A program made the position numbers and the translations under genes. The notes beneath the pieces are model-generated. The model was not told the origin of the DNA, ran no database searches, and saw only the letters and a program-made list of their open reading frames with translations. This document shows positions 9,939-46,738 of a stretch of DNA of 64,000 nucleotides, piece by piece. Origin of the DNA: Aminiphilus circumscriptus DSM 16581. Lineage in GTDB: Bacteria > Synergistota > Synergistia > Synergistales > Aminiphilaceae. How positions within the stretch are numbered: the stretch's first letter is position 1; every line of letters starts with the position of its first letter. The stretch is from the NCBI RefSeq assembly GCF_000526375.1, contig NZ_JAFY01000002.1, positions 744,001-808,000 on the forward strand, written 5' to 3'.

Positions 9939-10039
9939 GGAAGCTCTGAATAAAGGCCTTTCGTTTTCCCTTGACCTCGGACCGCATCAGGCTCTGCGAG
10001 GCGCCCTGCGGGGCTGATGCAGCCTTATTCAGAGATTCC
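9939..10039 (+). mobile_element. MITE-like element, copy 1
   Basis: A 101-bp non-coding element. The left terminal repeat GGAAGCTCTGAATAAAGGC (9939-9957) matches, inverted, GCCTTATTCAGAGATTCC (10022-10039). An inner stem pairs GCATCAG (9984-9990) with CTGATGC (10014-10020). It is flanked by a perfect 4-bp duplication, ACAG (9935-9938 and 10040-10043). Three further copies are at 19014, 33614 and 46639. It lies between the FAH gene and the nitroreductase gene and carries no open reading frame of its own. Confidence 0.85.
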
Positions 10040-10185
10040 ACAGTATCATCGTCTTTCGCCGGAAGGGCTGTCGGAATGGGGAAACGCGCCCGCTCGCGGG
10101 CTTTCCTTGCGAAGGGTTTCCGGAATCGAACGCCCTTTCCCGAAGCTTCGTCGTGCGGCGGGGATAATGCGGAAGGAGGAGCGGC

Positions 10186-10728
10186 ATGGCGTTTCTCGAT
10201 CTTGTGCGACGTCGCGGGAGCGTTCGGGCCTACGCGCCCGATCCGGTTCCGCGGGAGATACTCGACCGATGCGTGGAGGCGGCGCGTCTCGCGCCGAGCG
10301 CCTGTAATTCGCAGCCCTGGACCTTTCTTTTGGTGGATGACCCGGAGCGCCGGAGGTGTCTTGCCGAGGCCGCCTTCGACGGGGTCTACCGCATGAACTC
10401 CTTCGCAGCCCAGGCTCCGGTGCTCGTGGCGGTGCTCACCGAGCGCTCTCGTTTTGCCGCTCTACTGGGGGGATTCTTCCGAGGGGTTCAGTACAGTCTT
10501 CTCGATGTGGGCATCGCAGTGGAGCATTTCGTGCTCCAGGCCGCGGAGGAGGGGCTGGGTACCTGTTGGCTCGGATGGTTCGACGAAAGAGGCGTCAAGC
10601 GCGCGCTCGACCTTCCCGCCGGGGCGAGGGTGGACGTGTTGCTTTCCGTGGGATTTCCCCTTTCCGCCGAGGGGGCGAAGCCCCGGGCCTCCCGAAAGCC
10701 CCTGGAGGAGATGCGGCGCTATTGCTGA
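10186..10728 (+). CDS. Nitroreductase-family flavoprotein
   Basis: A 180-residue FMN-dependent oxidoreductase of the nitroreductase superfamily. It has the N-terminal RRRGSVRAYAPDPVP with flavin-contacting arginines, then EAARLAPSACNSQPW, and GLGTCWLGWF near residue 124, all standard family positions. The start is preceded by GGAAGGAGG. It is tail-to-tail with the kinase gene at 10858 and is separated from the uxaA operon by a MITE, so it may not be co-regulated with sugar-acid use. The physiological electron acceptor cannot be deduced. Confidence 0.87.
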   Translation: MAFLDLVRRRGSVRAYAPDPVPREILDRCVEAARLAPSACNSQPWTFLLVDDPERRRCLAEAAFDGVYRMNSFAAQAPVLVAVLTERSRFAALLGGFFRGVQYSLLDVGIAVEHFVLQAAEEGLGTCWLGWFDERGVKRALDLPAGARVDVLLSVGFPLSAEGAKPRASRKPLEEMRRYC

Positions 10729-10857
10729 GGTGCCGCTTCCGGTTTCTTCCTCGTACCGCCCCGTGCTCTTTTTTTCGGGAGGGCTTTCTTTTGCTGCGCC
10801 CAGTACTGGAACTGAATGCCCCCGACTCTCGACTCTCTCCGGCGCACGGTTTGCGTT

Positions 10858-12090
10858 TCAGCCGCGCAGGCGGAGAATGGCCGCGACGATGCTTCGAGGG
10901 GTCCCGAAGGCCCCCGCCTTGGTGACGAGAGGAAGGCCGTTCAGGTCGCCACCCTGGACGCGGAGCAGGGGGATGCCCGGCTCGATCTCCTCGGTCACTA
11001 CCGTTTCAACCACGGAAAGCCGCTTGAGAATCTTTGCCGCCACGTCGCCGCCGGAGAGAAAGAGGCCGCCCAGCCGGTGGCGCCGGGCCAGGGCGCACGC
11101 GAGATCGCCGAGAAAGGTGGCGATGCGGATGGCGTCGTTGCCGCGGTGGGTTGTCGAAGAGGGATCCTCCGGGCGCGAGCTGGCGATGAGAACGTTTTTA
11201 CCCTGGAGGAGCAGGGGACTCACGGTCTCGACGGCCCCTTCCAGGGCTCCCGGAGCATTTTGGAGAAAGGCGCTCATGTCGGGAATGTAGCCCATTGCGG
11301 TACCGCTGTTCAGAACCTGTTTCACCTGTTCGATGCTCCTTGGGTGAACGCTTCCCACCACGGCCAGAACAGGGAGGTCTCGCCTGACGAGGGCTTCCGC
11401 CAGGCCGGCGGAACCTGCCCACAGCACCGTCTCTGGAGCGACGGAGGCGGTCACCGCCCGGACGAGACGCCGCAAGTCCTCGTCGGTCTCGGCATCGAAG
11501 GTGTAGCACCCTTCTTCCCGCAGATTCCCGCATCGTGCTCCCCGAGGCGGAAGAAGAAATCCGCCCCGGAGTTCCTCCAGGCGGACGTGGCGGGGAGAGC
11601 ACGCTCCCGTTCCGCAAAGGAGCAGGGAAATGTCCGAGGTTGTCACGGGCTTGAGGGGATCTCTGGCCATGGCCGTCTGGGAGACTGGGATTCCCTCCAC
11701 GGAGAGAATCGCATTCTTCACAGTGCGTCCCATCTTGGGGAACGCCGGAGCGAAGACCACCGTTGAAAGTCCGAGACCCCGCTGTAGCGCCTCGACCTCG
11801 ACCGCCGTGTTGCCCCGGAGCGTGGAATCCGTCTTCAGATAGAAGATGGTGGTGCCGACGAAACGATGCAGCTCCGCGGCAAGGGCGGCGATTCTGGAAA
11901 AGGCCTCCTCCGCGGGCAGGTTCCGCGTTTCCGTGTCCACCACTAGAACGTTCGAGGCTCCTGCGATCCCCAGGAGGTTTTCCGGGTCGAGAAGAATCCT
12001 GGGGAGGTCATTGCGGGAACGGAGGAACTGTAGGGCCGTGTCGCAGGCGCCGGTGAAGTCGTCCGCGAGGACGACGTAACGAGAGGACAT
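10858..12090 (-). CDS. Four-carbon acid sugar kinase (DUF1537 family)
   Basis: This 410-residue protein belongs to the DUF1537 family, in which DtnK/DenK/OtnK enzymes phosphorylate D-threonate, D-erythronate or 3-oxo-tetronates. It opens with VVLADDFTGACDTALQF, the conserved substrate-binding motif, and has FYLKTDSTLRGNTAVEVEA near residue 93. It ends with the nucleotide-binding segment LFLSGGDVAAKIL followed by LVTKAGAFG. It starts four bases after the stop of a pdxA2-like gene, the usual partner that oxidatively decarboxylates the phospho-tetronate to dihydroxyacetone phosphate. It is the last gene of the operon starting with tctC. Confidence 0.9.
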   Translation of the reverse strand: MSSRYVVLADDFTGACDTALQFLRSRNDLPRILLDPENLLGIAGASNVLVVDTETRNLPAEEAFSRIAALAAELHRFVGTTIFYLKTDSTLRGNTAVEVEALQRGLGLSTVVFAPAFPKMGRTVKNAILSVEGIPVSQTAMARDPLKPVTTSDISLLLCGTGACSPRHVRLEELRGGFLLPPRGARCGNLREEGCYTFDAETDEDLRRLVRAVTASVAPETVLWAGSAGLAEALVRRDLPVLAVVGSVHPRSIEQVKQVLNSGTAMGYIPDMSAFLQNAPGALEGAVETVSPLLLQGKNVLIASSRPEDPSSTTHRGNDAIRIATFLGDLACALARRHRLGGLFLSGGDVAAKILKRLSVVETVVTEEIEPGIPLLRVQGGDLNGLPLVTKAGAFGTPRSIVAAILRLRG

Positions 12091-12094
12091 GCCG

Positions 12095-13099
12095 TCAGGC
12101 GGCGCCGTGTCGACCGGCGATGCGGTGTCGGGCGAACCGCACGGCGAACTCGATGGCCGTGCGAAGGCTCGTGGGATCCGCGGTTCCCTTTCCGGCCTTG
12201 CCGAAGACCGTTCCGTGGTCCACGGAGGTGCGGATGATGGGCAGTCCCACGGTGATGTTCACGCCTCCCATGAAATCGAGCAGTTTGAGCGGGATGTGTC
12301 CCTGATCATGGTACATGACCACCGCAATGTCGTACCTGCCGTTTTTGCAATGAAGGAACGCCGTATCCGGCGGAAGGGGGCCGGTCACGTCAAACCCCTC
12401 GTCAAGGGCGGCCTCGATGGCGGGGACAATGTGATCCGTTTCCTCCGTGCCGAAGAGACCGTGTTCGCCCGAGTGGGGATTGAGGCCGAGCACGGCGATG
12501 CGGGGGTTTTCGATGTCCAGCCCGCGCATGGCGCCGTCGGCGAGACGGATCACGTGGAGGACTCGTTCCTTCGTCACCCGGTCGCAGGCTTCGCGGAGAG
12601 AGACGTGAGTGCTCACGTGAATCACCCGGAGCGGTCCTCCCACGAGAAGCATGGCGGTTCCCCTGGACCTGGTGAGATCCGTAAAGATCTCCGTGTGTCC
12701 CGCGTAGTCGTGTCCTGCCAGGTTGAGGGCTTCCTTGTGCAGCGGTCCCGTCACCGTGGCGTCCACCTTGTCCGCCAGTGCCAGTTCGATGGCGCGCTTC
12801 ACGTAGGCGTAGGCGGCTTCGCCGCAGGAAGCCTGAATTTTCGCGAAGGAGTAGTCCTCTTTCAGGGAACCGCACTCCACCAGATTGATGCATCCGGGAG
12901 CGTAGTCGTCGGGATCCTCCAGAATGTGAAGTTTCCTCGTGGAGCCCACGATGGGCTTTACCTTTTCCACCACCAGTGCGTCGCCCACGAGAATGGGGCG
13001 ACAGGTCTCCTCGAAACGCCCTTCCTCGATGACCATGAGAGCGATTTCGGGACCCGCTCCGGAAGGATCTCCAAGAGTTATTGCCACTTTCGGCTTCAT
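12095..13099 (-). CDS. PdxA2-like 4-phospho-tetronate dehydrogenase
   Basis: A 334-residue PdxA-family dehydrogenase. Clear motifs are ITLGDPSGAGPEI at the start, the metal-site histidine regions LAGHDYAGHTE and VVMYHDQGHIPLKLL, and RTSVDHGTVFGKAGKGTAD near the end. PdxA itself works in vitamin B6 synthesis. The PdxA2 branch, always found next to DUF1537 kinases, oxidises 4-phospho-D-threonate or -erythronate, and the neighbouring kinase makes that assignment much more likely here. The start at 13099 has AAAGGA eight bases upstream. An upstream in-frame extension to 13279 overlaps the previous gene and looks spurious. Confidence 0.9.
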   Translation of the reverse strand: MKPKVAITLGDPSGAGPEIALMVIEEGRFEETCRPILVGDALVVEKVKPIVGSTRKLHILEDPDDYAPGCINLVECGSLKEDYSFAKIQASCGEAAYAYVKRAIELALADKVDATVTGPLHKEALNLAGHDYAGHTEIFTDLTRSRGTAMLLVGGPLRVIHVSTHVSLREACDRVTKERVLHVIRLADGAMRGLDIENPRIAVLGLNPHSGEHGLFGTEETDHIVPAIEAALDEGFDVTGPLPPDTAFLHCKNGRYDIAVVMYHDQGHIPLKLLDFMGGVNITVGLPIIRTSVDHGTVFGKAGKGTADPTSLRTAIEFAVRFARHRIAGRHGAA

Positions 13100-13199
13100 G
13101 GGGAACAGTCCTTTCGCGTCGAGTGAAAAAAGTCCGACGGCCCGGAAGAGGGGGAGGCTTTGGGTACGGGCCGCCGGAAGAGGTTTGGTGGACGGAGGA

Positions 13200-14468
13200 T
13201 CAGAAGAGATTGCCCTCCTCGTTGAAGGGCAACTCCCGAGGTTCGCCCAGAACTTCCAGGTTCGGATGTGCTTCCGCATAGGGGATGAGGTTTTCGGAGA
13301 TCGCTATCTCCTCCAGGCTCACCGTGTTTTTGATGCGCACGAGACGGACGGCGTCACGATCGGCAACGTTGCTCATCTTCACTGCCGCCTGGATGGCCTG
13401 GCGGTCGTTTCTGAGAACCATGGGAATCTTGACGCTCATGGGTACCGTGGAGGTCAGGGCGTTTGGATAGGTCTGTTCGAAGTCGAACTTTCGGTAGGCC
13501 CGAATGGTGGTGAGGTCCAGAATGCCCAGACCATTTCCGTTGCCGCCGGATTTATCGGTGATGTCCAGCACCGCCACACGAGTGATCCTGGGTCCCCCCG
13601 ATGCGTAGGGGGTGTGGTAACGCCCGACGATGTTCGTGTCGAAGCCGGTGCCGCAGATGTCCTTGCCGATCTCGTCGATGACCAGCACGTCCAGCTCGTC
13701 GAAGAAAATTCGTGGATAGAGTTTCCAGGCCTCCTGCAGCAGCTCAGGCTCGCGAAGTTCGATGCGATCCTTGGGAAGAACCTCCAGAAGCGCCGTCTCG
13801 TGGAAGGCATTCTCCACGACGCCGACGGCGCAGAGAACGTTCTTCTTGGCCAGCGTCACCCGTGCGACGGAGGGAATGTTCGCCGCCATTTCGCCGAAAC
13901 CGAGGCGATGTGCGTGATCCGCGCCACGCTGTTTTCCCATGCCGATGGTGACCATCTTCATGAGGCCGCTCTCGTAGGAGCCCCGAAAAGCAGGGTGAGG
14001 TTTGACGCGGTTGACGATCACGATGGCGTCCGCTTCGTCGGCGTATTTATCGAGGTAGACGGGGCATCCCGTGTCGGACGTGCCGAGCTGGACCGTCTCC
14101 ATGGTGGCCCGGATAGGGGCTCCCACGGACTCCTCGGTGATACCCATCTTGGCGAGGAGATGAGTCTGTCCCTCGGCGGTGGCGCCGCCGTGGCTCCCCA
14201 TGGCGGGGAAGAGAAACGGCTCTCCCCCCGCGGCGCGGATCTCCCGCACGAGCACCTTGAGCATGAGCGCCAGGTTCGTCACGCCACGGCTTCCCGCGGT
14301 GACCGCCACGGTCTGTCCCGGGCGGATCGCCTGCAGGGTTCCGCTCTCTCGGAGTTTCGCGGTGAGTATCGCCTCCACATCGTCTATCCGCGGTCGGGGA
14401 AAGATCTGGCGCACCTTCACGACTCGAGGAAGCGGTATGGGTGCCAACAGAGTGTCGATGGCCGACAT
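13200..14468 (-). CDS. LarA-like nickel-pincer hydroxyacid racemase/epimerase family protein (DUF2088)
   Basis: A 422-residue member of the lactate racemase (LarA/DUF2088) superfamily. Residues expected for cofactor or nickel binding appear in order: FPAMGSHGGAT, VNRVKPHPAFRGSYESGLMKM with a His and a Lys, and GADHAHRLG. The spacing is that of the LarA-homologue subgroup rather than classical lactate racemase. Some homologues racemise or epimerise other 2-hydroxy acids. In an operon for sugar-acid uptake and breakdown, a C2 epimerase for an aldonic acid is a reasonable inference. The cofactor genes larB, larC and larE are not in the window. It is separated from the upstream dehydrogenase by a 35-bp gap. 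Confidence 0.82.
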   Translation of the reverse strand: MSAIDTLLAPIPLPRVVKVRQIFPRPRIDDVEAILTAKLRESGTLQAIRPGQTVAVTAGSRGVTNLALMLKVLVREIRAAGGEPFLFPAMGSHGGATAEGQTHLLAKMGITEESVGAPIRATMETVQLGTSDTGCPVYLDKYADEADAIVIVNRVKPHPAFRGSYESGLMKMVTIGMGKQRGADHAHRLGFGEMAANIPSVARVTLAKKNVLCAVGVVENAFHETALLEVLPKDRIELREPELLQEAWKLYPRIFFDELDVLVIDEIGKDICGTGFDTNIVGRYHTPYASGGPRITRVAVLDITDKSGGNGNGLGILDLTTIRAYRKFDFEQTYPNALTSTVPMSVKIPMVLRNDRQAIQAAVKMSNVADRDAVRLVRIKNTVSLEEIAISENLIPYAEAHPNLEVLGEPRELPFNEEGNLF

Positions 14469-14503
14469 GGGCTTGCGCCTCCTTGCAGAACTAGATACGA
14501 CGA

Positions 14504-15601
14504 TCAGGGTTTCAGAGCTACCCGGAGACAGTCGTGACTCGTCGCGGCGAGGTTGAATCCGTCCTCCCACTGGGACAAGGGGAAGGCGTGCGTCACGAGG
14601 GGGTCGAGAACCACGTCGCCGGTGCCAACGAGATGGATGGCGGTCTTCCAGTCGTAGGGAATCTGGGAGATTTCGCCCTTCACGTCGATTTCCTTGACGA
14701 TGATTTTGTGGGTGTCCACGGGAGCCGTGATGCCTCCCCGAATGCCGCCGCCCGCCCAGAGAACCTTGCCACCCTTGCGGACGATGTCGAGGGATTCCGC
14801 GATGGGCTCCACGGAACCGGTGTTCTCGAGGACCACATCCACGCCGATGCCGCCGGTCAGTTCGGCGATGCGCTTTCGAATGTCCTCTTTGTCCACATTG
14901 ATCACCACGTCGGCACCGAGCTTTTTCGCCATGACGAGCCGGAAATCCGCGTCGCGGTCGAGGCCGCTCATGAAGATGGGGCCGGCACCGATGGCCTTGC
15001 AGACCTGCATGAGCAGGATCCCCCGTGCGCCGGGACCGAGAATGGCCACGGACTCTCCTGCCCGGACACCCATGCGGCTGATGATGCTGTGTATCGATCC
15101 CGCCGTGGGTTCGAGCAGCACGGCGCTCTTGGAATCCACGTTGTCGGGCAGGACATGGAGCTGGAACTCGGGCCACACAGTGTACTTGGCGAAGCCGCCG
15201 CCCGTGACGTAGTGGGCACGTCCGTCCATGGGGCGCAAAGTGTTGCAGATGTTGAAGCGCCCTTCGAGACAGGCGGGACAGTGGCCGCAGTAGAAAGTGA
15301 CGATCTCACAGACCACGCGGTCTCCGGACTTCACGCGGGTGACTTCTGGACCGGTCGCGATGACCCTGGCCACGATCTCGTGCCCTTGCACCACCTTGCG
15401 GGGCGGGTGCAGAACGGCGGCCTTCTCCGCCTCGCTGGCGGTCCATTTGTGAATGTCGCTGCCGCAGATTCCGCAGTATTCCACTTCGAGCAGCACGTCG
15501 TGGGGGGCGTAGGGGTTCTCTCCCAGCTTCGGTACGGGGACTTCCTCAAGTCGCACATCCCCGTTCGGATAGGTCACAAGTCCGAGCATCGTTTTCTCCA
15601 T
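14504..15601 (-). CDS. Zinc-dependent medium-chain alcohol/polyol dehydrogenase
   Basis: This 365-residue protein is a medium-chain dehydrogenase. The catalytic zinc cysteine lies in EYCGICGSDIHKW, with its partner histidine in VVQGHEIVARV. A structural zinc site is formed by CGHCPACLEGRFNIC, and the NAD(P)-binding loop reads VAILGPGARGILLMQ. The family includes threonine, sorbitol and galactitol dehydrogenases, so it most likely oxidises a hydroxyl of the imported sugar acid or a derivative. It starts 27 bp after the stop of tctA, which supports co-transcription. Confidence 0.9.
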   Translation of the reverse strand: MEKTMLGLVTYPNGDVRLEEVPVPKLGENPYAPHDVLLEVEYCGICGSDIHKWTASEAEKAAVLHPPRKVVQGHEIVARVIATGPEVTRVKSGDRVVCEIVTFYCGHCPACLEGRFNICNTLRPMDGRAHYVTGGGFAKYTVWPEFQLHVLPDNVDSKSAVLLEPTAGSIHSIISRMGVRAGESVAILGPGARGILLMQVCKAIGAGPIFMSGLDRDADFRLVMAKKLGADVVINVDKEDIRKRIAELTGGIGVDVVLENTGSVEPIAESLDIVRKGGKVLWAGGGIRGGITAPVDTHKIIVKEIDVKGEISQIPYDWKTAIHLVGTGDVVLDPLVTHAFPLSQWEDGFNLAATSHDCLRVALKP

Positions 15602-15627
15602 GGTACGGTTCTCTCTCCCTTCGTGGA

Positions 15628-17145
15628 TCATACGGGCGATGTGCCCGATGGGTCCTTCTTCCGCGAGGCCCTCCAGCGTTCGTACATGGGTGTGGACTGA
15701 ACGAGCGAGAGAAGGGCGAGAAACAGCAGTGTGGCCGAAATGGGATTCGTGAGAAAAACCGTCCACGATCCCTGGCTGATGAGCAGGGACTGGTGCAGGC
15801 TCACGTCGAGCATTCTGCCCAGGATCAGCCCCACCACGAGGGGGGCCACGGGAATTTTTAGTTTGTCCATGAAGTAGCCCAGGATGCCGAAGGCGAACAT
15901 GAGCCCCACTTCGAAGAGATTGTTGTTGATGGCGAAGGCCCCGATGACGCAGAGGACCACGATGGCCACGGACAGCACCCTGTTGCTGATGCGAGTGACG
16001 AAGATGCATGCCTTGGTGAAGAGCAATCCCTCCGCGAACATGAAGAAATTGGACAGGAGGATCGCCCAGAGGAGTGTATAGGTCACGCCCGCGTATTCCG
16101 TCATCAGGGTGGGGCCGGGCATGATGCCGTGGATCATGAGCCCTCCGAGAAGGATGGCCGTGGCGGAACTGCCGGGAATGCCCAGAGAGATGGTGGGAAT
16201 GAGCGCTCCACCCACCACGGCGTTGTTGGCCGCTTCGGGAGCGGCGATGCCGTAGGGGTTTCCCTTGCCGAAGGATTCCTTGTCCTTGGAGAACCGTTTC
16301 GCCTCGTTGTAGGCGAACCAGCAGGCCGTGTCGCCGCCCGTGCCGGGAATGATGCCCGTGAAGACGCCGATGAGTCCCGAGCGAATGAAGGTGGGAATGA
16401 GGGGACGGATCTCTTTCCAGGGGCGAAGGATGCGGTCCTTGATGGAGTTCACCCGCTCCGTCACCACCTCATCGCTTTCGACGAGCCGCAGGGCCTGGGG
16501 AATGGAGAAGAGGCCGATGAGAGCCACCGTGAAGGGAATGCCCGAGAAGAGGTTGATGTTTCCCAGGGTGAACCGGGGAATACCCGTGATGGAATCCATG
16601 CCTACCGTGGAGAAGAGAAGCCCGAGCATGCCCGCGAGCAATCCCTTGACGGTAGATCCCTGAGAGAGAGAAGCGATGATGGTCATGCCCAGCACCGCCA
16701 CGGCGAAGAGTTCCACCGGCCCGAACATGAGGGCGACGCGCCCGAGAATGGGAGCGATGGTGAGGAGAAAGAGGCTGCTCACCGTGCCGCCAACGAAGGA
16801 GGCGGTGAGGGAAATTCCCAGAGCGCGTCCTGCCTCGCCGCGCTGGGCCATGGGATATCCGTCGAGTACCGTGGCCGCCGCGGAGGGTGTTCCCGGGGTC
16901 CGCACCAGGATGGCCGCGATGGAGCCGCCGTACATGGCCCCCATGTAGATGGCGGCGAGCATACTGATGCCCGTTTCCGGGCGGAGCACGAAGGTGACGG
17001 GCACCAGGAGGGCGATGGCCATGGTGGCGGAGAGTCCCGGCATGGCCCCCACCAGGAGGCCGAGACCGGTTCCGAAGGCGACGGCGAGGAGATTCGCCGG
17101 AGCCAGAACGGAAGTGAAGCCGAGAAGAATGTTTTCGAGAATCAT
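15628..17145 (-). CDS. tctA: Tripartite tricarboxylate transporter, large membrane subunit TctA
   Basis: A 505-residue membrane protein with about twelve hydrophobic segments and the TctA signatures GLLVGAMPGLSATMAIALLVP and YGGSIAAILVRTPGTPSAAATVLDGYPMA (given here as adjoining motifs), with a second conserved region at GIIPGTGGDTACWFAY. TctA forms the transport pathway of the binding-protein-dependent TTT system and works with the small subunit TctB and the periplasmic TctC, both directly upstream here. Substrates of the wider family include citrate and other organic acids; here a sugar acid is inferred from the neighbouring catabolic genes. Confidence 0.93.
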   Translation of the reverse strand: MILENILLGFTSVLAPANLLAVAFGTGLGLLVGAMPGLSATMAIALLVPVTFVLRPETGISMLAAIYMGAMYGGSIAAILVRTPGTPSAAATVLDGYPMAQRGEAGRALGISLTASFVGGTVSSLFLLTIAPILGRVALMFGPVELFAVAVLGMTIIASLSQGSTVKGLLAGMLGLLFSTVGMDSITGIPRFTLGNINLFSGIPFTVALIGLFSIPQALRLVESDEVVTERVNSIKDRILRPWKEIRPLIPTFIRSGLIGVFTGIIPGTGGDTACWFAYNEAKRFSKDKESFGKGNPYGIAAPEAANNAVVGGALIPTISLGIPGSSATAILLGGLMIHGIMPGPTLMTEYAGVTYTLLWAILLSNFFMFAEGLLFTKACIFVTRISNRVLSVAIVVLCVIGAFAINNNLFEVGLMFAFGILGYFMDKLKIPVAPLVVGLILGRMLDVSLHQSLLISQGSWTVFLTNPISATLLFLALLSLVQSTPMYERWRASRKKDPSGTSPV

Positions 17146-17169
17146 GACGGAAGCACTCCTTTCCCGGGC

Positions 17170-17649
17170 CTAGCTTCCCAGAAGAGATTCCAGGCAACCC
17201 ATGGGAATGGGGAGCTTCAGGAACCACACGAAAAGGAAATAAATGAAGATCGAGAACCCGACTCCCACCAGGATCGCCCTGACGAGGCCCATGGCGCGTA
17301 GAAAGACGTAGCCGAGAATCATGAAGAGCGGTGTGGCGACGAAATAGCCGATGCGTGGAATGGCGTAGATGTAGGTAATGATTGCAACGACGTAGGCGAC
17401 GACGGTTCCTTTATTGATTCGCTTCTCCGGGGAAGCGGGTTCTCTTTCTTCGTTGTTTCCGGCGGTGGACTGTCGTTGTTCCCTGATGGCCATAAGGACC
17501 ATGGCGCCGGAGAGGATGAAGACGAGAATGGACACGAGCTTTGGAAAGAGGCCCGCCGAGGCGGGCATTGAGGATGCCTTGACGAAGAAATAGGCCCCGA
17601 GGCCGGTGGTGGCCAACGCGAAAAGGCTATGATCGAGAACCTGTCTCAA
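17170..17649 (-). CDS. tctB: Tripartite tricarboxylate transporter, small membrane subunit TctB
   Basis: A 159-residue protein with four predicted membrane helices and a charged central loop (REQRQSTAGNNEEREPASPEKR), as expected for TctB. The start codon is TTG at 17649, preceded by AGGAGG with eight-base spacing; no ATG fits better. It lies between tctC and tctA, with a strong hairpin (17758-17804) separating it from tctC. Confidence 0.85.
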   Translation of the reverse strand: MRQVLDHSLFALATTGLGAYFFVKASSMPASAGLFPKLVSILVFILSGAMVLMAIREQRQSTAGNNEEREPASPEKRINKGTVVAYVVAIITYIYAIPRIGYFVATPLFMILGYVFLRAMGLVRAILVGVGFSIFIYFLFVWFLKLPIPMGCLESLLGS

Positions 17650-17757
17650 GATTTGTACCTCCTGTACTGCTTGATCAGAAACGTCCCGGTCAGAGTTGTT
17701 CGGAGCATCCCGCAGAAAGACGTTGTCCGAGAGGAAACGTGTTTCGCTGCGAGAACT

Positions 17758-18790: not shown

Positions 18791-19013
18791 AACGCGTTCC
18801 CCCCCTGAAATATGATGGAATCGGTGAAGCCGACCAGCGAAGCCTTCCGGCCCGGAAGGGCCTTCCGCTTCGCGTACGTCCCGCGCATGTCGCTCCGGAA
18901 CGGTTCCCGCTCCGGAGGAACCCCATCCTCTCCTGGTTGTGACGAAAAGCCCCGTGAAAATGTGGTTTTGCGTTGTCCTGATGCGATAATTTGGCGTTGC
19001 TAGAATAGCATAA

Positions 19014-19113
19014 GGGATCTCTGAATAAGGCTACGCCAGCCCCGCAGGGCGCCTCGCAGAGCCTGATGCGACCCGAGTCAAGGGAAAGCGAAAGGTTTTT
19101 ACTCAGAGCTTCC
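19014..19113 (-). mobile_element. MITE-like element, copy 2, in the tctC leader
   Basis: A 100-bp copy of the element family, reading GGGATCTCTGAATAAGG on the plus strand and ending CAGAGCTTCC. It is flanked by the perfect duplication ATAA (19010-19013 and 19114-19117). It is inserted between the promoter/operator of the tct operon and tctC itself, so the long leader RNA should include its whole fold. The left end has one base change (GGGA for GGAA) relative to the other copies. Confidence 0.83.
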
Positions 19114-19133
19114 ATAACATAAAAGGAAAGAAT

Positions 19134-19207: not shown

Positions 19208-19408
19208 TCCTGACTTTTGCCTTTGTGTGACAAGACAGGGAGAACGTCATCCCTTAAACGGGAGGGAACTCTGATCAAGTAGGAATCACCCTCTCTCAAT
19301 CTCGATCGCATCGCGTTTTTCCGAGATCGGCGTGGCATTTCTCAGAGGTTTCCGGGACAGGGAGAACGTCGTCTGTCCTTCTCCAGAGATGATGAGGAGC
19401 GATGTTCT

Positions 19409-33347: not shown

Positions 33348-33613
33348 CTGCCAAACTCTCCTCGAAAGCCGTTCCATTATCCCGTTGTTTCGCCTTTTGT
33401 CAAGATACCCCTGGCGGAATTGTTCGAGAAAATGTTCCACGGTGTTTTCCGGCGGCGAAAGTGTGCGGCGGAGAAAGAGAACGGAGGTGTGCTTGTGACG
33501 ATCCGCAATGAAGAGTGGAGGGGTTTTTTACCCGGGAGGGCCGGTGTGTGAAGGAGATCCGCAAGAGGGGACGGCGGCGGGAGTTTCTCGGCGGAAGAAA
33601 AGCGTAGTATTAT

Positions 33614-33713
33614 GGAATCTCTGAATAAGGCTGCGTCAGCCCCGCAGGGTGCCTCGCAGAGCCTGATGCGACCCGAGTCAAGGGAAAGCGAAAGGCCTTT
33701 ATTCAGAGCTTCC
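33614..33713 (-). mobile_element. MITE-like element, copy 3, at the manC promoter
   Basis: A 100-bp copy reading GGAATCTCTGAATAAGG on the plus strand and ending TTATTCAGAGCTTCC, flanked by the perfect duplication TTAT (33610-33613 and 33714-33717). The left duplication is the end of a TATTAT box (33608-33613), so the element landed at the -10 region of the likely manC promoter. It is nearly identical to copy 2. The remaining part of 33235-33759 apart from the helicase leader shows nothing recognisable. Confidence 0.85.
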
Positions 33714-33759
33714 TTATAGTAAAAACGGATTCATGATGCATGCCGGGGAGGAACGACTC

Positions 33760-38730: not shown

Positions 38731-39390
38731 TCATTGCCATTCCGCCCGGAATTTTCGCTCCAAAAGGGCGATGATCTTGGAAAGCCCGAAGGTCATGACG
38801 AAATAGAGCAGAGCGATGAAGCTCCACACCTCGAGAGAGCGGAAGGTGGTGGCCACCAGATTTTTCCCGATGAGGGTGAGATCCACCACGGAGATCACCG
38901 ACACGAGGGAGGAATCCTTGATGAGGATGATGAACTGAGATGCCAGGGGTGGCAGGACTTTTCGGATCGCCTGGGGAAGGATAACCAGTTTCATGGCCTG
39001 AATGTAAGTCATGCCAGAGGCCCGGGCTGCCTCCATCTGTCCCTTGGGAACGGCCTGAATGCCCGCCCGGACCACTTCGGCCACGAATGCGCCGGAAAAG
39101 ATCGCCAGTCCCACGATGGCGGACCAATAGGCGCCAAGACGCAAAAAGCGCCCCAAAACGAAGAAGATCCAGATGAGGAGCACCAGCAGGGGAACGCCGC
39201 GGAAAAACTCCACGTAGCAGGCGGAGAAAAAGGCAATGACCCTGTTGCGGGACACCCGGCACAGTCCGGCGAAGATTCCGATGGGAAGGCTCAGGACGAG
39301 CGACAGGGCCGAGATGGTGAGGGTGAGGCGCACTCCTTCCAGAAAAAGGGGCAGATTTTGGGGAATAACGCTCCAGTTTGTAGTGTACAA
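38731..39390 (-). CDS. Polar amino-acid ABC transporter permease (HisM/GlnP type)
   Basis: A 219-residue inner-membrane permease with five predicted helices. It carries the family EAA loop GAFVAEVVRAGIQAVPKGQMEAARASGM (read as two adjoining motifs) and the C-terminal FIILIKDSSLVSVISVVDLT. Only one permease gene is present, so the transporter is presumably a homodimer in the membrane. It lies between the binding-protein gene and the ATPase gene, with a strong hairpin upstream at 39525-39557. Confidence 0.92.
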   Translation of the reverse strand: MYTTNWSVIPQNLPLFLEGVRLTLTISALSLVLSLPIGIFAGLCRVSRNRVIAFFSACYVEFFRGVPLLVLLIWIFFVLGRFLRLGAYWSAIVGLAIFSGAFVAEVVRAGIQAVPKGQMEAARASGMTYIQAMKLVILPQAIRKVLPPLASQFIILIKDSSLVSVISVVDLTLIGKNLVATTFRSLEVWSFIALLYFVMTFGLSKIIALLERKFRAEWQ

Positions 39391-39524
39391 AAAATCGCCT
39401 CCTTAAATTCGTGGCGTGTTCGCGGAGGTTCATTGCCTCTTGGTGACGCACGTTACTGACTGAAGATGACGCGGTTCCCTTTGGCGTCGCAGAGAACGTC
39501 GGGGCTCGTTCCCGCTGCGACGGC

Positions 39525-39557
39525 TCCGGAGGAGGAAGCGGTTCTTCCTCCTCCGGA
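39525..39557. repeat. Strong hairpin between amino-acid binding protein and permease genes
   Basis: TCCGGAGGAGGAA (39525-39537) is exactly complementary to TTCCTCCTCCGGA (39545-39557). No T-run follows on the minus strand. It sits in the 221-bp gap after the binding-protein gene, the same position as the hairpin after tctC, and probably stabilises the upstream transcript. Confidence 0.7.
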
Positions 39558-39611
39558 AGGTTCTTTCCTCCCAACGAGCAACGCGGGCGGAAGGGCGTGC
39601 GATGGGTGCCT

Positions 39612-40421
39612 CTACTGAGCCATCTCCTGCATCCATTCGGTGGAATTGAACCATTTTTCCCGGGATTCCAGTTCCTGGGGACTTCCCAGATAGTGGAAGA
39701 GGAAGGAGTTCAGCCACTGAATGAAGGCGAAATCGTTCAGGCGGACCGCCATGCCGAGATTCTCGCTGCTGATTAGGTCGTAGATGCCGCGCACGCCTTC
39801 CTTGTGCATGATCTCGTACATGCGGATTCCCGGTTCGTCGTAGACGATGCCATCCGCCTCTCCCTGGACCAGGGCTGCCGATGCCTCGGGAAAGGTGGGG
39901 AAATCGAGCACCGTGGCTTCCTTGTAGATTTGTTTTGCCAGAAGCGCTCCCGTGGTTCCCTGGGAGACGGCGATCTTTTTGCCCTTCTTGTCCAGGTCGC
40001 TCCAGATCGTTGTTTCCGTGTCCTTTGCGGGAACCATGAGCACCTGTCCCGTGGAGTAATAGGGGTTGGGGAAGCTCACGGCAAGGGCGCGGTCGCCCCG
40101 GATGGTCATTCCGGCGATGAGAATGTCGATCTCGCCCGTCTGGAGCGCGGGAATAAGCCCGGAGAACTCGAACTGCTTGAATTCCACCTCCACGTTCAGC
40201 GCTTTTGCCACAGCTTTGCCCAGATCGATGTCGTAGCCGATGAAGTTCCCCTTCTTGTCCTTCATCTCGAAGGGAAGGTATCCCGGCGCGGTGCCGATGA
40301 CGATTTTCTTTGCCGCAAGGATCTTGTCCAGCGTGGACGGAGTGTCCGCGGCGAACGCGACGGATGCGGCGAGGATCACCGCCAGGAACAGGACGAGGCA
40401 GAGCAGCGCGAATTTCTTCAT
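39612..40421 (-). CDS. Polar amino-acid periplasmic binding protein (family 3)
   Basis: A 269-residue periplasmic binding protein. The signal peptide ends SVAFA before ADTPST. Family 3 motifs are IVIGTAPGYLPFEMKDKKGNFIGYDIDLGKA (start of mature domain, two adjoining motifs), GEIDILIAGMTIRGDRALAVSFPNPYYST and KIAVSQGTTGALLA. The substrate-contact Arg in the segment MTIRGDRA agrees with an amino-acid ligand. The start at 40421 has GGGAGGTG upstream. It heads the operon with the permease and the ATPase. Confidence 0.92.
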   Translation of the reverse strand: MKKFALLCLVLFLAVILAASVAFAADTPSTLDKILAAKKIVIGTAPGYLPFEMKDKKGNFIGYDIDLGKAVAKALNVEVEFKQFEFSGLIPALQTGEIDILIAGMTIRGDRALAVSFPNPYYSTGQVLMVPAKDTETTIWSDLDKKGKKIAVSQGTTGALLAKQIYKEATVLDFPTFPEASAALVQGEADGIVYDEPGIRMYEIMHKEGVRGIYDLISSENLGMAVRLNDFAFIQWLNSFLFHYLGSPQELESREKWFNSTEWMQEMAQ

Positions 40422-40459
40422 TACACACACCTCCCGATGATGGAAAGCACCGTTACATT

Positions 40460-40510
40460 CCGTATTTCTCCATCCCGCCGAAGGCGGTTCGGCGGGATGG
40501 AGAAATGCGG
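40460..40510. repeat. Long near-perfect inverted repeat upstream of the amino-acid binding protein gene
   Basis: A 23-base arm starting CCGTATTTCTCC (40460-40482) pairs with an arm ending GGAGAAATGCGG (40488-40510) with a single mismatch across a five-base GGCGG loop. It is 39 bp upstream of the minus-strand start codon, so it lies in the leader or just beyond the promoter. Its role is unknown. Confidence 0.7.
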
Positions 40511-40551
40511 ATGGCGCTCCCGTTATGGAACGAAATTTTAGCAGGCGATCT

Positions 40552-40574
40552 AAAAGGGAACAAGAGTCCCTTTT
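40552..40574 (-). terminator. Intrinsic terminator after the metallo-beta-lactamase gene
   Basis: AAAAGGGA (40552-40559) pairs with TCCCTTTT (40567-40574) across a seven-base loop. Read on the minus strand the stem runs into TTTT. It is about 120 bp downstream of the hydrolase stop codon and separates it from the amino-acid transporter operon. Confidence 0.6.
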
Positions 40575-40694
40575 TTCGGAAAAAGTGAGGTTTTCCCCTT
40601 TCCGGTGGTTTTGTTCGGATTTTCAAAGACCTTCTTTCGGAACGCGTCGGTTCCCCTTCCGAGCGAGTGTGCCGGAGAGATGCCGCGCTCATCG

Positions 40695-41612
40695 TCACTG
40701 ATCGGGGCCAAGGATGAGGGCAAAGCGCCCGAAATCGTACTTCCGCATACCTCCCTTGCCGACCGTGAAGGGAGTTTGCCCCTTCCGGATTCCTTCCGCG
40801 GCGGCGAGAACGTCTTTGAGGATCTCCTTGTCCAGCCAGGGTTCGTTGTGGCTCGGCATGATCTTGTCGTAGAGAGGGAAGAGGTCGATAAGTTTTCGGT
40901 AGCTTGCGAGAAACTGGTCGAAATCGCCACCGGGAAGAAAGGTGTAGATCGATCCGGTGTAGAAGAGATCGCCCACCCAGAGCAGGCGCGCCGTCCGGTC
41001 GAGGAGGGAGACGGAGTCCGGCGAGTGCCCGGGAGTCCAGATGACCTCCAGGACGCGGTTGCCCAGGTCGATGGTGTCTCCATCCTTGAGCCAGCGCGTG
41101 ACCGAAAAGGGCGGCATATGGTACGTCGCGGGATCGAACCCTTCGGGATAAGGTTTCCACACGTTGCCGGGAGCGATGAGATCCAGAGCCTCCTCGTGAG
41201 AAAAGCCCTCCGCGGCGGCTTTTCTCGCCAGACCGAGAGGGTCGTCGAAGAGAGCCACGTCGTCGAAAAGGTAGTTCTGGGCGACATGGTCGATGTGGTG
41301 GTGGGTGTTCACCACCGAGACGGGGAGGGACGTGAGTTCCTCCGCGAGGGTGCGGATGTTTCCGATGCCGTCCCCGGTATCGATGAGGACCGCCCGTTCT
41401 TCGCCGGGGACGAGATAGCTCAGGGTTTCCTCGAACTGCCCGTCCTCGTAGATAGCGAACACATTTCCGGGAGTACGGTAGACCTCGAACCAGGGTATGC
41501 CGGTGGTCACCCTTTCCAGATTGCGGTAGGCCGCCCTGGGAAGGGCGCTCTCCCACCCCTTGGCCCTGACCACGTCCTGGTTTTGGGTTGTGTCGCTGCT
41601 GCACTCGGTCAC
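40695..41612 (-). CDS. Metallo-beta-lactamase-fold hydrolase
   Basis: A 305-residue metallohydrolase. The metal motif is NTHHHIDHVAQ near residue 110, a further histidine is in IWTPGHSPDSVSLL, and the catalytic aspartate and last histidine positions fit WVGDLFYTGSIY and IMPSHNEPW. The family covers many thioester, lactone and phosphodiester hydrolases, so the substrate is unknown. The start is GTG at 41612 with GAGGAGG upstream. It follows a LivK-type binding protein on the same strand and may act on an amino-acid derivative, which is only contextual inference. Confidence 0.85.
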   Translation of the reverse strand: MTECSSDTTQNQDVVRAKGWESALPRAAYRNLERVTTGIPWFEVYRTPGNVFAIYEDGQFEETLSYLVPGEERAVLIDTGDGIGNIRTLAEELTSLPVSVVNTHHHIDHVAQNYLFDDVALFDDPLGLARKAAAEGFSHEEALDLIAPGNVWKPYPEGFDPATYHMPPFSVTRWLKDGDTIDLGNRVLEVIWTPGHSPDSVSLLDRTARLLWVGDLFYTGSIYTFLPGGDFDQFLASYRKLIDLFPLYDKIMPSHNEPWLDKEILKDVLAAAEGIRKGQTPFTVGKGGMRKYDFGRFALILGPDQ

Positions 41613-41752
41613 GGAAATCCTCCTCTCGCGGTTTGCGGCCAGTCTCTGAGGTGGCCGGTCCTTCTCTGGACGAGTCGCGCTGCGGAAAGGTGAACCGGAA
41701 GGAGCGAACGCGGGCTCCGGTTCGCCTTTCCGCAGCGATGGAATGAAAATTC

Positions 41753-42901
41753 TCAATCCTGAGGAATCACCTTCTGGTACAGTTTTTCCACGCTGCCCTC
41801 GAAGACCAGGATTGCCGTGGGCTTGTTGTGGGGCGTGTTCGTGGCGGGATCCACCGTGAGGACGAAGTCGGGAAGCTGCAGTCCCTGCGTGTTCGCCAGG
41901 GCGTCCCGGATCTTCGCTCCGTCGTACTCGCCGGCCCGTTTGATGGCATCGGCGATCCACATGATGGTGTCATAGGCGAGGGTGCAGCTCACGATCTCCA
42001 CGGGCTTCTTGTTGAAGCGCTTTTCGTATTTCTTGACGAGGGGTTGCACGTCCGGATCATCCGTGGCGATGTGGGTGAGCCAGTAGGTCCCGTTCATGGC
42101 GTCTCCGGCGATCTCCGTCATGGCTGGGCTGTAGCCGTCGCCGCCGATGAACACGGGTTTCCAGTCCATCTCCGCGGCCTGCTTGATGATGAGGGCCATT
42201 TCCTTGTACATGCCGGGCAGGAAGACCGCTTCCGCGCCGGTCGCCTTTGCCTGGGTGATCTGGGCCCGGAAGTCCACGTCGCCGTCGCGGTAGCCGTAGG
42301 TGCCGACCACCTTGCCGCCCACCTTGGGGAAGTGATCCTCGAAGAACTGCTTCATGCCTTCCGAGTAGTCGCTGCCCACGTCGTGGAAAATGACGGCGGT
42401 CTTGAGGTTCAGCGTGGTGCCGAGAAATTCCGCGATGGCCTTTCCCTGGTAGGGATCGGTGAAGCAGACCCGGAACGAGTAGGGGCGCACCTTACCGGTC
42501 TGGGGATCCACGGTGACCGCCGGGTTCGTGGCGGAGAAGGAGACGATGGGAACCTTGTGCTGTTCGCTGATGGGAACGATGGCGATCTGGCAGCCGCTGA
42601 AGTTGGTTCCCGCGATGACCTGGACTTTGTCCTCGAGAATCAGACGTCGTGCGGCGTTCACCGCATCTTCCTGGCGACCGCGGAAGTCGTAGATCACCAG
42701 TTCGACGGGGCGTCCCAGAAGGCCTCCCGCGGCGTTGATCTCTTCCACGGCGATGATGGACATGTCTCGATGGTGCTCTCCCCAGGTTGCGCCGGATCCC
42801 GTGAGTTGAACCAGGCAGCCGATTTTGATGGGTTCGGCTCCTTCGGCCACGGTTCCGACCAGGAGTACAAGAGCGCACAAAACAAGCAGCACCTTCTTCA
42901 T
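41753..42901 (-). CDS. Branched-chain amino-acid-type periplasmic binding protein (LivK family)
   Basis: A 382-residue type I periplasmic binding protein. The signal peptide ends VAEGA before EPIKIG. Signatures are IKIGCLVQLTGSGATWGEHH, INAAGGLLGRPVELVIYDFRG, ARRLILEDKVQVIAGTNFSG and AVIFHDVGSDYSEGMKQFF. No LivH, LivM, LivG or LivF genes are nearby, so it is an orphan that must use a transporter encoded elsewhere or act as a sensor. The start at 42901 is the third methionine, with GGAGGGG upstream. Amino acids and amides such as urea are all possible ligands. Confidence 0.9.
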   Translation of the reverse strand: MKKVLLVLCALVLLVGTVAEGAEPIKIGCLVQLTGSGATWGEHHRDMSIIAVEEINAAGGLLGRPVELVIYDFRGRQEDAVNAARRLILEDKVQVIAGTNFSGCQIAIVPISEQHKVPIVSFSATNPAVTVDPQTGKVRPYSFRVCFTDPYQGKAIAEFLGTTLNLKTAVIFHDVGSDYSEGMKQFFEDHFPKVGGKVVGTYGYRDGDVDFRAQITQAKATGAEAVFLPGMYKEMALIIKQAAEMDWKPVFIGGDGYSPAMTEIAGDAMNGTYWLTHIATDDPDVQPLVKKYEKRFNKKPVEIVSCTLAYDTIMWIADAIKRAGEYDGAKIRDALANTQGLQLPDFVLTVDPATNTPHNKPTAILVFEGSVEKLYQKVIPQD

Positions 42902-43081
42902 CCCGTTACCCCTCCCCTTCTTCATCTCTTCCGACTCATCGGAGCGCTTCGGCCTCCAATCCCTTCCGGAGACCTCGGTGCCGCCGTCCCGACTTTTCCC
43001 CCGAGCGCCGGTGCTTCGCATTACCCTTCCGACCGTCCCACCTCCTCGTTTTCCGCACGATCAGGGATCGTCTCCCTACCG

Positions 43082-44392
43082 CTACAGAGACATTTCCTTC
43101 TCTTCGAAGACGATGCCGTTGCGTTCCAATTCCGCCAGAGTCGGTTCGTAGATCTGGGGATACACGGGGGCGACGACGCCACGCAGGGTGATCGTTCCCT
43201 TCAGAATGAGATCCGCGCCGATTGCGGGGGGAAATCCCGTGGTCACGGCGATGGCGCTGTCGCCGCCCGCCTCTCCGTAATGGACGAGCGTGGAGAGGAT
43301 GCGTCGCGTCTTCGCTCCGAAGACCACCTCGTATTCGTGACGCATGATGAGCAGGTCCCGTTCATCCTTGTCGAAGCCGAGCTTGCGGGAGAAAAGATCG
43401 AAGACCACATCCCGGTTGCACCGGATTTTATCCGAGAGGAGTTCGTCACTGAAAAGGCCGAGCCATTCCAGCCGCTTGAGAGGCATTGCGAAGGCGGGCA
43501 TGCCGAGAAACGCCGCCAGGGCTTGGATGAGGTCGCTTTTTTCATCGGCGCCGCAAAGCCCGGCGGTGAACTGGCGCAGCGTCTTTCCCGCGAGCGGGCG
43601 GGATGTGGTGTCGAAAAGCCCAAGCATCTGCATGGCCCGAATGGTCTCACACCAGCCGGGGAAACGCAGCGTCGCCCGGTAGATGTTTGGAGTGTTCGGG
43701 ATGCCGTACAGTTCAGCGTAGGGAAGGGAATTTGCGTTGGCATACTCTTCGAACCAACCCACCCCCTCGATTTCTTTGAGGGTGGAACGCTGGAAGACCT
43801 CCTCCGCGGGGACGAAAATTTCTTTTCCGTTCCGGAGATAGTGCGAGGGGCGGACGCAGGCGTGGAGAAGGTCTCCGGGAGACCAGGAAAGCTTGTAGCC
43901 CCAGGGGTTGGTGTTCGCCTCCAGGGAGGGGAGTGCGCCGCACCAGGAGCTGAAGGACTTCACGAAACCGCCCCGCTTTTCCACTTCCCGGATGGTTCGC
44001 ACCGCCGTCATGTGGTCGATGCCCGGATCGCATCCCATCTCGGCGAGGAAGGTCAGCCCCTGTCGCTCGGCATCCTTGGAGAACGCCTTCATCTCGTCGT
44101 TCATGTACGAGGCGTTGATGAAGTGCTTGTTCTCCCGAAGACAGAAGGGCGCGACGTCCTTGTGAAAGACCCAGGGCAGAAGGGAGATCACCAGGTCCGC
44201 CTGAGGAACGAGCCGGGCCGCTTCCTTCAGTCCGTCTCCGACGACGGGAATACCATTCTCGTGTCCGCCGAGAACGTGCTCCACGCGCTCGCGGACGGTG
44301 TCCACCACGGTGACGCGATGACCCTGTTTCAAAAGGTACTGCACGCAGGGGCGGGCTACCATGCCCGCGCCGAGAACGAGAACATGTTTCAC
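43082..44392 (-). CDS. Saccharopine dehydrogenase family protein
   Basis: A 436-residue NAD(P)-dependent enzyme. It opens with the nucleotide-binding fold VLVLGAGMVARPCVQYL and has NASYMNDEMKAF, then LAEMGCDPGIDHMTAVRTI near residue 125, the saccharopine reductase/dehydrogenase core. The C-terminal part keeps VTTGFPPAIGADLILKG. Family members interconvert lysine or other diamino acids with glutamate conjugates, or form carboxynorspermidine. The start is GTG at 44392 with AAAGGAGG upstream. It lies next to an amidinotransferase-family gene, which suggests breakdown of a basic amino acid. Confidence 0.9.
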   Translation of the reverse strand: MKHVLVLGAGMVARPCVQYLLKQGHRVTVVDTVRERVEHVLGGHENGIPVVGDGLKEAARLVPQADLVISLLPWVFHKDVAPFCLRENKHFINASYMNDEMKAFSKDAERQGLTFLAEMGCDPGIDHMTAVRTIREVEKRGGFVKSFSSWCGALPSLEANTNPWGYKLSWSPGDLLHACVRPSHYLRNGKEIFVPAEEVFQRSTLKEIEGVGWFEEYANANSLPYAELYGIPNTPNIYRATLRFPGWCETIRAMQMLGLFDTTSRPLAGKTLRQFTAGLCGADEKSDLIQALAAFLGMPAFAMPLKRLEWLGLFSDELLSDKIRCNRDVVFDLFSRKLGFDKDERDLLIMRHEYEVVFGAKTRRILSTLVHYGEAGGDSAIAVTTGFPPAIGADLILKGTITLRGVVAPVYPQIYEPTLAELERNGIVFEEKEMSL

Positions 44393-44537
44393 GAAAACAC
44401 AGCCTCCTTTATGAGGGATTGAGGTAGTCCAAAGATCGATGTCCCCACGGATCGCCGCGTCCATTTCCGGAGCTTTCGCCGGCCTTGCGGAAAGGCGGCA
44501 CCGTCCGAGAAACAGAAACGGGGGTCGTTGGAGACGA

Positions 44538-45557
44538 TCACGAACGTTCGCGCACCAGGGGAAGCGTGCTGCAGTGAATGCCTCCGCCGTGTTTCGAGAT
44601 CTCCTCCCAGGGAATGAGGATCGTCTCCATGCCGAAAGACGCGAGTCGCTCCGCCGTGTACACCGCCCGGTCGTCCATGATCACCTTTCCAGGGGAAAGG
44701 GTGAGACAGTTCACGGCCATGGATCCTTCGCGGTAGTCCGCGGGGATTTTCTGGATGCCCAGTTCGTCAAGCGTGTCGAGAAACCAGTAGGGAAGGCGCT
44801 CCACGTTGAGAAGAGCCTTGTCGTGGTCCACCATGACGATGCCGCCGTCCAGATGCATGGCGTACCCCGGCAGGGGAACCTGGATCAGTTCGACCTCCTG
44901 ATACTGGAGAACGTGCCGGAGTTGTTCCGCACCGCTTGGATTGCCGCGGAAACTCAGGCCGATGGCGGCGTGTTTCTCGTCGAGGAAACAGAAACTTCCG
45001 CCTTCGAGCAGGCCGTCGCCGGCGATGGTGCGGAGGATGGGCATGCCGATCTCGGCGAGCTTCTGGAGCACGAAGCGCTCTTCGCCGCGGCGTCCCGTGC
45101 CGTGGGCCTTGCCCACGGGACCCATGCGGGAGATGATCGCTCCACCCTTGACCACCATGCCGCAGTCCCGGACGAACATCGCGTTGGGATCGCGCGGTGC
45201 GCCGCCGACGGTCACGATTTCCACTCCGTGTGTTTCGAGGACCCTCACAAGGGCGGCGAACTCATCCTGCATCTTCACAAGGTCCGGCCCCCTGTCGTCC
45301 CGGAAGTACCACTGCTCCGCGTCGTCGATGAGGGCATCGATCTCGGGGTCGTACTTGTCCGATGTCATGACGAGGATTTCTTCTCCGGGCGGATGAAGGA
45401 GGATGGTCCGGAGCGTGCCGACATCGTTGTAGACACCCCAGCGACGTCCCCAGACCCGGCGTTGCATCTCCTCCTCGTGAAAGACCGGAGTGGCTCTCGG
45501 AGGAATGCGCGAGAGTACGACATGGTAGTATTGAGAACTGCTGCGAAGAGTACCCAT
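44538..45557 (-). CDS. Amidinotransferase-superfamily hydrolase (DDAH / arginine deiminase type)
   Basis: A 339-residue member of the guanidino-group-modifying superfamily. The likely catalytic Cys is in GGGIHCSTLPL near the C-terminus, the general-base His is in GYAMHLDGGIVMV near 220, and acidic residues for the guanidinium lie in MFVRDCGMVVKGG near 135 and GDGLLEGGSFCFL near 190. Family members hydrolyse arginine, agmatine or methylated arginines to citrulline-like products and ammonia or an amine. The exact substrate is not resolved. It follows the GntR gene and may start its target operon. Confidence 0.85.
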   Translation of the reverse strand: MGTLRSSSQYYHVVLSRIPPRATPVFHEEEMQRRVWGRRWGVYNDVGTLRTILLHPPGEEILVMTSDKYDPEIDALIDDAEQWYFRDDRGPDLVKMQDEFAALVRVLETHGVEIVTVGGAPRDPNAMFVRDCGMVVKGGAIISRMGPVGKAHGTGRRGEERFVLQKLAEIGMPILRTIAGDGLLEGGSFCFLDEKHAAIGLSFRGNPSGAEQLRHVLQYQEVELIQVPLPGYAMHLDGGIVMVDHDKALLNVERLPYWFLDTLDELGIQKIPADYREGSMAVNCLTLSPGKVIMDDRAVYTAERLASFGMETILIPWEEISKHGGGIHCSTLPLVRERS

Positions 45558-45928
45558 GGAACACCTCTTTCCGTCGCTTTGCGGTCCTGCCCCCGAGGCC
45601 CTTTCCTCGGTGCCGTTCCGTCGTCTCAACCCTCATCCCCGGTCCGGGAAGACGGACATGCGGTGAGGGATCCGACATCTTTCCGAGCGTGTTCGCCACG
45701 TCCGTCTCGGTAACTTTCCCGCTGTTTTTGCAGCGTCTGTCCTGTTTCGAACCCCGCGTTTCTTTATCTTTATCGAGCGGATGTCGTCGTTTCGTTCCTC
45801 TGGGAGGGCGCTGTTTTGTTGTGTTGGTTGTATAGGCGATGTTTTATGATGCACTCTTTTTCGGATCAAAATCGAAAAAAGAACATTTCTTTTAGTAGAG
45901 AGGGTTTTTCGGAAATGTGCGAAAACCG
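45558..45928. other. AT-rich intergenic region, probable promoter of the amino-acid operon
   Basis: This 371-bp gap lies between the GntR gene and the amidinotransferase gene, both on the minus strand. Its upper part (about 45800-45920) is far more AT-rich than its surroundings and contains TTGATC with TAAAAC 17 bp downstream on the minus strand, a weak promoter candidate. I see no convincing operator or terminator. Confidence 0.4.
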
Positions 45929-46609
45929 TTACCGTCTGGAATTGGTGAGCCACTTGTAGGTGGAGAGAACATGCTTTTCCATGGCGTTCCGTGCTCGTTG
46001 CCCGTCCCGATTGCGGAGTGCCTCGAGGATGTCGTTATGTTCTGCGAAGGAGTATCCGTAGACAGGTTCGGGATCCATGGCGGAGTCGAACCCGTGGAGG
46101 AAGAAGGAGTCGAAGAAGAAAACGTAGATCTGGGAGCGCCAATAGCTCTGAAGAATGTATTTTTCCAGATAGGGATTGCCGCTCATGCGGCAGATGCAGT
46201 GGTGGAACTCCTGACTGTTCCTGGTGAAATTCTCCGTGTTCCAGTTGCGGTAGATCCGCTCCTCCTCTTCCTGGAGAACTTCGATCTGTCTGAGGGAGGT
46301 GGAGTAGCAGGGCTCTGGGCTTTCCGCCGCGAGGGCCGCCGCCATCCCTTCGAGTTTCTGTCGGATCTGGAAGACCTGGAGCATGTCCGGAGGCGTGAGA
46401 GGAGGAATGACATATCCCTTGGGTTCGTCCCGCTCGAGAATTCCCTCGGCGATGAGTTCCCGGAGGGCCGTTCTCACGGGGGTGCGACTCACTTCGCACA
46501 GTTCCGCGAGGCTTTTCTCCGTGATTCGTTGTCCCGGAACGAGTCGCCTCTTGAGGATGAGAAGCAGAATTTCCTCGCGGGCCTTGCTTTCCGCCTGACT
46601 TCTCGACAT
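45929..46609 (-). CDS. FCD-type GntR transcriptional regulator
   Basis: A 226-residue regulator. The helix-turn-helix part reads LVPGQRITEKSLAELCEVSRTPVRTALRELIAEGILERD (two adjoining motifs). The FCD domain has His residues in EFHHCICRMSGNPYLEKY, HNDILEALRNRDGQRA and MEKHVLSTYKWL that should bind a metal and a carboxylate ligand. It is the first minus-strand gene before the amidinotransferase/saccharopine-dehydrogenase group, so control of those genes is the natural inference. A MITE lies 29 bp upstream of its start codon. Confidence 0.9.
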   Translation of the reverse strand: MSRSQAESKAREEILLLILKRRLVPGQRITEKSLAELCEVSRTPVRTALRELIAEGILERDEPKGYVIPPLTPPDMLQVFQIRQKLEGMAAALAAESPEPCYSTSLRQIEVLQEEEERIYRNWNTENFTRNSQEFHHCICRMSGNPYLEKYILQSYWRSQIYVFFFDSFFLHGFDSAMDPEPVYGYSFAEHNDILEALRNRDGQRARNAMEKHVLSTYKWLTNSRR

Positions 46610-46638
46610 GATTCGTTCCCTCCGGCAGATGAGCTTGT

Positions 46639-46738
46639 GGAAGCTCTGAATAAAGGCCTTTCGCTTTCCCTTGACTCGAGTCGCATCAAGCTCTGCGAGG
46701 CGCCCTGCGGAGCTGACGCAGCCTTATTGAGAGATTCC
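46639..46738 (+). mobile_element. MITE-like element, copy 4, in front of the GntR gene
   Basis: A 100-bp copy, GGAAGCTCTGAATAAAGGC at the left and TTATTGAGAGATTCC at the right (one change, C to G, in the right repeat). It is flanked by the perfect duplication TTGT (46635-46638 and 46739-46742). It is immediately upstream of the second GntR gene and should be in its leader or promoter. The rest of 46610-47161 has one small hairpin, GGGTTT/AAACCC near 46880, and the htpG promoter. Confidence 0.85.

Follow-up and report, generated by a model that had tools for sequence, protein, structure and literature searches.

The ~100-bp repeats described here are copies of a transposed MITE family (MITE-1; ~120 copies in the genome), and their termini indicate that they were probably moved in trans by the transposase of a 1236-bp IS5-family element, a reading to which we assign a probability of roughly 0.85. 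They are transposed MITEs and not a conserved RNA, because 61 of the 89 copies read with flanks have perfect 4-bp target duplications (TSDs) and seven insertion sites are empty in a sibling species. MITE-1 has been active recently and is tied to an element of the IS5 family; it is a new and well-documented family, though of a familiar type.

The window, i.e. the whole 64-kb stretch of DNA analyzed (G000:C2:744001-808000), belongs to a genome of 3.22 Mb (G000) and contains the following elements, in window coordinates:

1-14, plus strand: fifth MITE-1 copy, right end only, TSD CTAA at 15-18; the element is C2:743915-744014
9939-10039 (101 bp), minus strand: MITE-1 copy 1, TSD ACAG at 9935-9938 and 10040-10043; span 9935..10043
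19014-19113 (100 bp), plus strand: MITE-1 copy 2, TSD ATAA on both flanks; span 19010..19117
19264-19353 (90 bp), plus strand: copy of a second family, MITE-2, TSD GGGA, its right end read with one extra base; span 19260..19357
33614-33713 (100 bp), plus strand: MITE-1 copy 3, TSD TTAT on both flanks; span 33610..33717
46639-46738 (100 bp), minus strand: MITE-1 copy 4, TSD TTGT on both flanks; span 46635..46742

The first-pass annotation had reported copies 1-4 as ~100-bp elements bounded by terminal inverted repeats (TIRs), with ACAG, ATAA, TTAT and TTGT duplicated at their flanks; alignment and flank reading found all four in place, with copies 1 and 4 oriented opposite to copies 2 and 3. 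The fifth MITE-1 copy, which spans window base 1, and the MITE-2 copy were absent from that annotation. MITE-1 is 100 bp long with TIRs of ~15-19 bp, and has no transposase gene and no room for a protein gene. The TIR decamer CTCTGAATAA (at most one mismatch) was observed 10 times in the window, with 1.26 occurrences expected. Judged by their Pfam-identified neighbors, copies 1-4 are all intergenic, some of them beside promoters, and an influence on the expression of neighboring genes is possible. Copy 1 sits between FAA-hydrolase and nitroreductase genes, copy 2 between genes for a TctC-like protein and an ABC transporter, copy 3 immediately upstream of a manC-like gene (PF00483/PF01050), and copy 4 lies ~30 bp 5' of a minus-strand gene of the GntR family and also 5' of hsp90. 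An Rfam search of the window matched MITE-1 to no curated family; the sole match was a cobalamin riboswitch elsewhere (RF00174; 22572-22727, minus strand), located 5' of FecCD and ABC transporter genes.

Genome-wide, a pattern for the MITE-1 core, which leaves out the TIR, gave 120 matches (control, 0), and a pattern for the TIR gave 296 (reversed-pattern control, 1). The core occurs five times in the sibling species (G001), where a search with the 100-bp element gave seven copies, and gave no match in eight further genomes belonging to that order; among 60 relatives searched with the 100-bp element, G001 alone matched. Neither an exact 29-base pattern in viral contigs nor a search of plasmids for MITE-1 gave a match. 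In the 89 copies read with their flanks (the other ~30 of the 120, which enter the count only, lie in large part on the latter half of contig C7), a 3-bp duplication would fit seven and a 5-bp duplication three, while shuffled, re-paired flanks gave a mean of 2.8 and a maximum of 10 perfect 4-bp TSDs against the 61 observed. Copies picked by core alone, a choice that avoids TIR selection, have a perfect TSD in 52 of 85 cases. The median pairwise identity of the copies is 0.91, and per-column conservation shows no clear difference between TIR and core in an anchored alignment, where TIR variation is mostly low except at a few polymorphic columns.

The sibling species is close enough for a comparison of orthologous sites (aligned sequence around manC is 98 and 93% identical). 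Ten insertion sites were joined in silico with one TSD and searched in G001, and copy 3 was searched separately, giving eleven in total, seven of which are empty with a single, unduplicated target. The alignment runs straight over the junction at six of these: window copy 4 (GAGCTTGGACATG vs GAGCTTGTACATG), C7:139405, C7:511765, C5:541287, C5:269818 and C2:104664. The seventh, C2:331790, is empty at the junction but has other sequence alongside. A single flank aligned at C2:429191, window copy 2 gave a short flank match only, and the orthologous intergenic region of window copy 3 has no element, its leader being too diverged for a base-exact site. Together with the genome-wide TSDs, the empty sites bear out the earlier suggestion that the copies stem from separate transposition events. 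The site of window copy 1 is occupied in G001 by a reversed element (G001:C38:40733-40831; L223) with the duplication CTGT instead of ACAG. Element and TSD look flipped together within TAC...GTA, an arrangement that suggests an in-place inversion. The amplification of MITE-1 most likely postdates the divergence of the two species, since the draft of the sibling has only ~5-7 copies and broken IS pieces, as opposed to 120 cores in G000.

Searches with PF01609, PF13586 and PF13359 gave no match in the window, in keeping with the first-pass annotation, which had seen no transposase there. Outside the window, the PF01609 search of the genome identified a 1236-bp element with four intact, 100% identical copies and several decayed ones. 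It encodes a 320-aa transposase of the IS5 family (NF033581, 364.6 bits, cut-off 140; also PF01609 and PF05598). The element has the ends GGAAACCCTGAACAAG and GGAATCTCTGAAAAAC, and its four intact copies have the TSDs TTAA, TTAA, AAAG and CTAG/TTAG. The first 15 bases of its right end agree with the MITE-1 T-end at 14 positions and, more weakly, with the B-end at 13, and the match declines beyond ~15 bp. The likeness to IS5-group ends noted earlier is thus matched by a full-length, near-matching element with a transposase gene in the same genome. The parent transposon, which the first-pass annotation could not name, now has an intact candidate with near-identical termini and 4-bp TSDs, though one from which the core of the MITE does not seem to derive. 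Based on the shared termini, the 1236-bp IS transposase is likely the mobilizer of MITE-1. Acting in trans, the DDE transposase would recognize GGAANCYCTGAANAA, the end common to both, and insert MITE-1 at staggered cuts 4 bp apart; it would prefer YTAR and accept A/T-rich variants, as YTAR is very rare in the genome.

The closest relatives of the transposase are found mostly in Synergistaceae and Thermovirgaceae MAGs and in strain L-13 (Synergistota, same order; CP074691.1), where a related IS has the TSD CTAG. Going by these relatives and by genome G025 (listed in the same order), whose terminal repeats coincide exactly in position with those of L-13 locus L084, the host lineage is probably Synergistota. 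Only broken IS fragments were seen in the draft of G001, which is 81% complete and from which an intact IS could escape. A 347-bp derivative of the IS in G000 (C2:597279-597625; L167) has kept both ends and lost most of the transposase gene, and is flanked by the TSD TTGT. It shows that non-autonomous IS derivatives transpose, and is an intermediate in MITE birth. A second PF01609 element of 2152 bp (L074-L078), with a 615-aa transposase and at least six copies, was rejected as a partner on account of its unrelated ends, CCCGACTTCGCC.

Direct descent of MITE-1 from the IS is unproven because none of the IS elements identified matches its ~70-bp core. Aligned with seven IS loci, the core scored no better than shuffled controls, and an origin as a direct internal deletion of the resident IS is unsupported. 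The lack of core homology would also fit a different parent, i.e. a lost or unsampled IS5-group element with the ends GGAATCTCTGAATAAGGC and GGAAGCTCTGAATAAAGGCC, with the resident IS at most an occasional mobilizer, as would position 13 of the TIR, which is T in MITE-1 and A or C in the IS. However, no IS with closer ends was found in the genome (searched with PF01609, PF13586 and PF13359) or in the transposase-matched loci of 60 relatives, the PF13586 and PF13359 searches re-finding the same IS copies only. The low divergence among the MITEs and the identity of the IS copies fit co-activity of the two. We consider a different parent a rather doubtful alternative to mobilization by the resident transposase.

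MITE-2 is ~90 bp long, with ~14 copies in G000 and three in G001, and its core is unrelated to that of MITE-1. Its ends, GGAAACCCTGATCAAG and GGARCCTCTGAAAAATGCCG, are nearer to the IS than those of MITE-1 (14/15 left, 24/35 right). Most copies with both ends recognized have perfect 4-bp TSDs, and a related subfamily in G001 has the TSDs TCAA, CTGA, TTGA and CTAA. Two copies are nested in MITE-1, one at C7:13437 (TSD GAAA) and one in a MITE-1 end at C1:20623 (TSD GAAG), and in these cases the MITE-1 sequence itself supplies the empty site. The existence of two families with unrelated cores raises the speculative and on balance improbable idea that the transposase amplifies unrelated short sequences bearing its ~15-bp ends, so that MITEs would be born by end capture, not by internal deletion; the inverted ortholog of window copy 1 adds to this the notion that elements flip in place.

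The repeats are palindromic, and the inner stem described by the first-pass annotation is present, although its fold strength varies between copies (z-scores of -1.3 to -3.8). Stable folds in some copies, and the intergenic position of the window copies, some near promoters, are what might be expected of a conserved structured RNA, an attenuator or a REP-like extragenic palindrome spread by means other than transposition. Such an explanation is very improbable, and as the main one it is ruled out by the exact TSDs and the seven empty orthologous sites; the equal orientation counts (57/63 on the two strands) and the lack of an Rfam match also speak against it. A secondary role of MITE-1 in the transcription of its neighbors is possible. 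Spread by recombination or segmental duplication along with flanks has a single case in its favor, two copies at C5:390010-390253 in a 144-bp tandem duplication including flank (L025; C5:389950-390260), and is next to impossible as a general account, the flanks otherwise differing and every perfect-TSD copy having its own duplication, which rules it out for the window copies.

The commonest TSDs of MITE-1 are TTAG, CTAA and GAAA, with T at position 2 in 59% and A at position 3 in 75%. According to the first-pass annotation, the duplications do not follow YTAR. At the family level this does not hold: YTAR makes up 15 of 61 TSDs (25%), compared with 0.7% of the words directly flanking the TSD (6 of 890) and 0.036% of window words. 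The window, with a GC content of 62% and a TA dinucleotide frequency of 1.2%, has only 23 YTAR words in 64 kb. Because of this excess over adjacent words and background, the target preference of MITE-1 is YTAR in a relaxed form, with YTAR itself a minority of the TSDs. The family thereby offers a case of a YTAR preference masked where the genome has almost no YTAR words.

MITE-1 resembles the NF033581 group of the IS5 family (IS5_4; e.g. E. coli IS5) in that the transposase of its partner IS fits the profile and the duplication is 4 bp. The GGAA-type ends seen here presumably match the ends of IS5 itself. A preference for YTAR, shared by MITE-1, is reported for IS5 (PMC10359306). Unlike IS5, MITE-1 has a relaxed YTAR preference, encodes nothing and has a core that does not match its partner IS. 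Among bacterial MITEs, the Chunjie element of Geobacter uraniireducens is likewise multi-copy with TIRs and direct repeats and is mostly intergenic, but it is another element from another phylum, set apart by its description (178-235 bp, 38 TIR-bearing copies; PMC10969869). The Correia elements of Neisseria and the QMITEs of Coxiella are high-copy intergenic miniature transposons, the former 204 bp long and QMITE2 with duplications of 7-9 bp (PMC10969869); as described, they differ from MITE-1 with its 100 bp and 4-bp duplications. A literature search limited to open-licence papers found no paper on MITEs in Synergistetes. The intact IS with identical copies, its internal-deletion derivative, two MITE families, nested insertions and a sibling with mostly empty sites make up a usable natural system; beyond this value and the masked YTAR preference, MITE-1 is an ordinary MITE family.

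Some elements stand in tandem, exactly one common 4-bp duplication apart, as at C5:479456-479660 (479556/479561; L185) and C2:410990-411183 (411089/411094; L249). At C5:502768/502773 (C5:502768-502883; L069), an IS and a MITE are 4 bp apart with a TSD common to both. Such shared TSDs suggest that a good target was used again.
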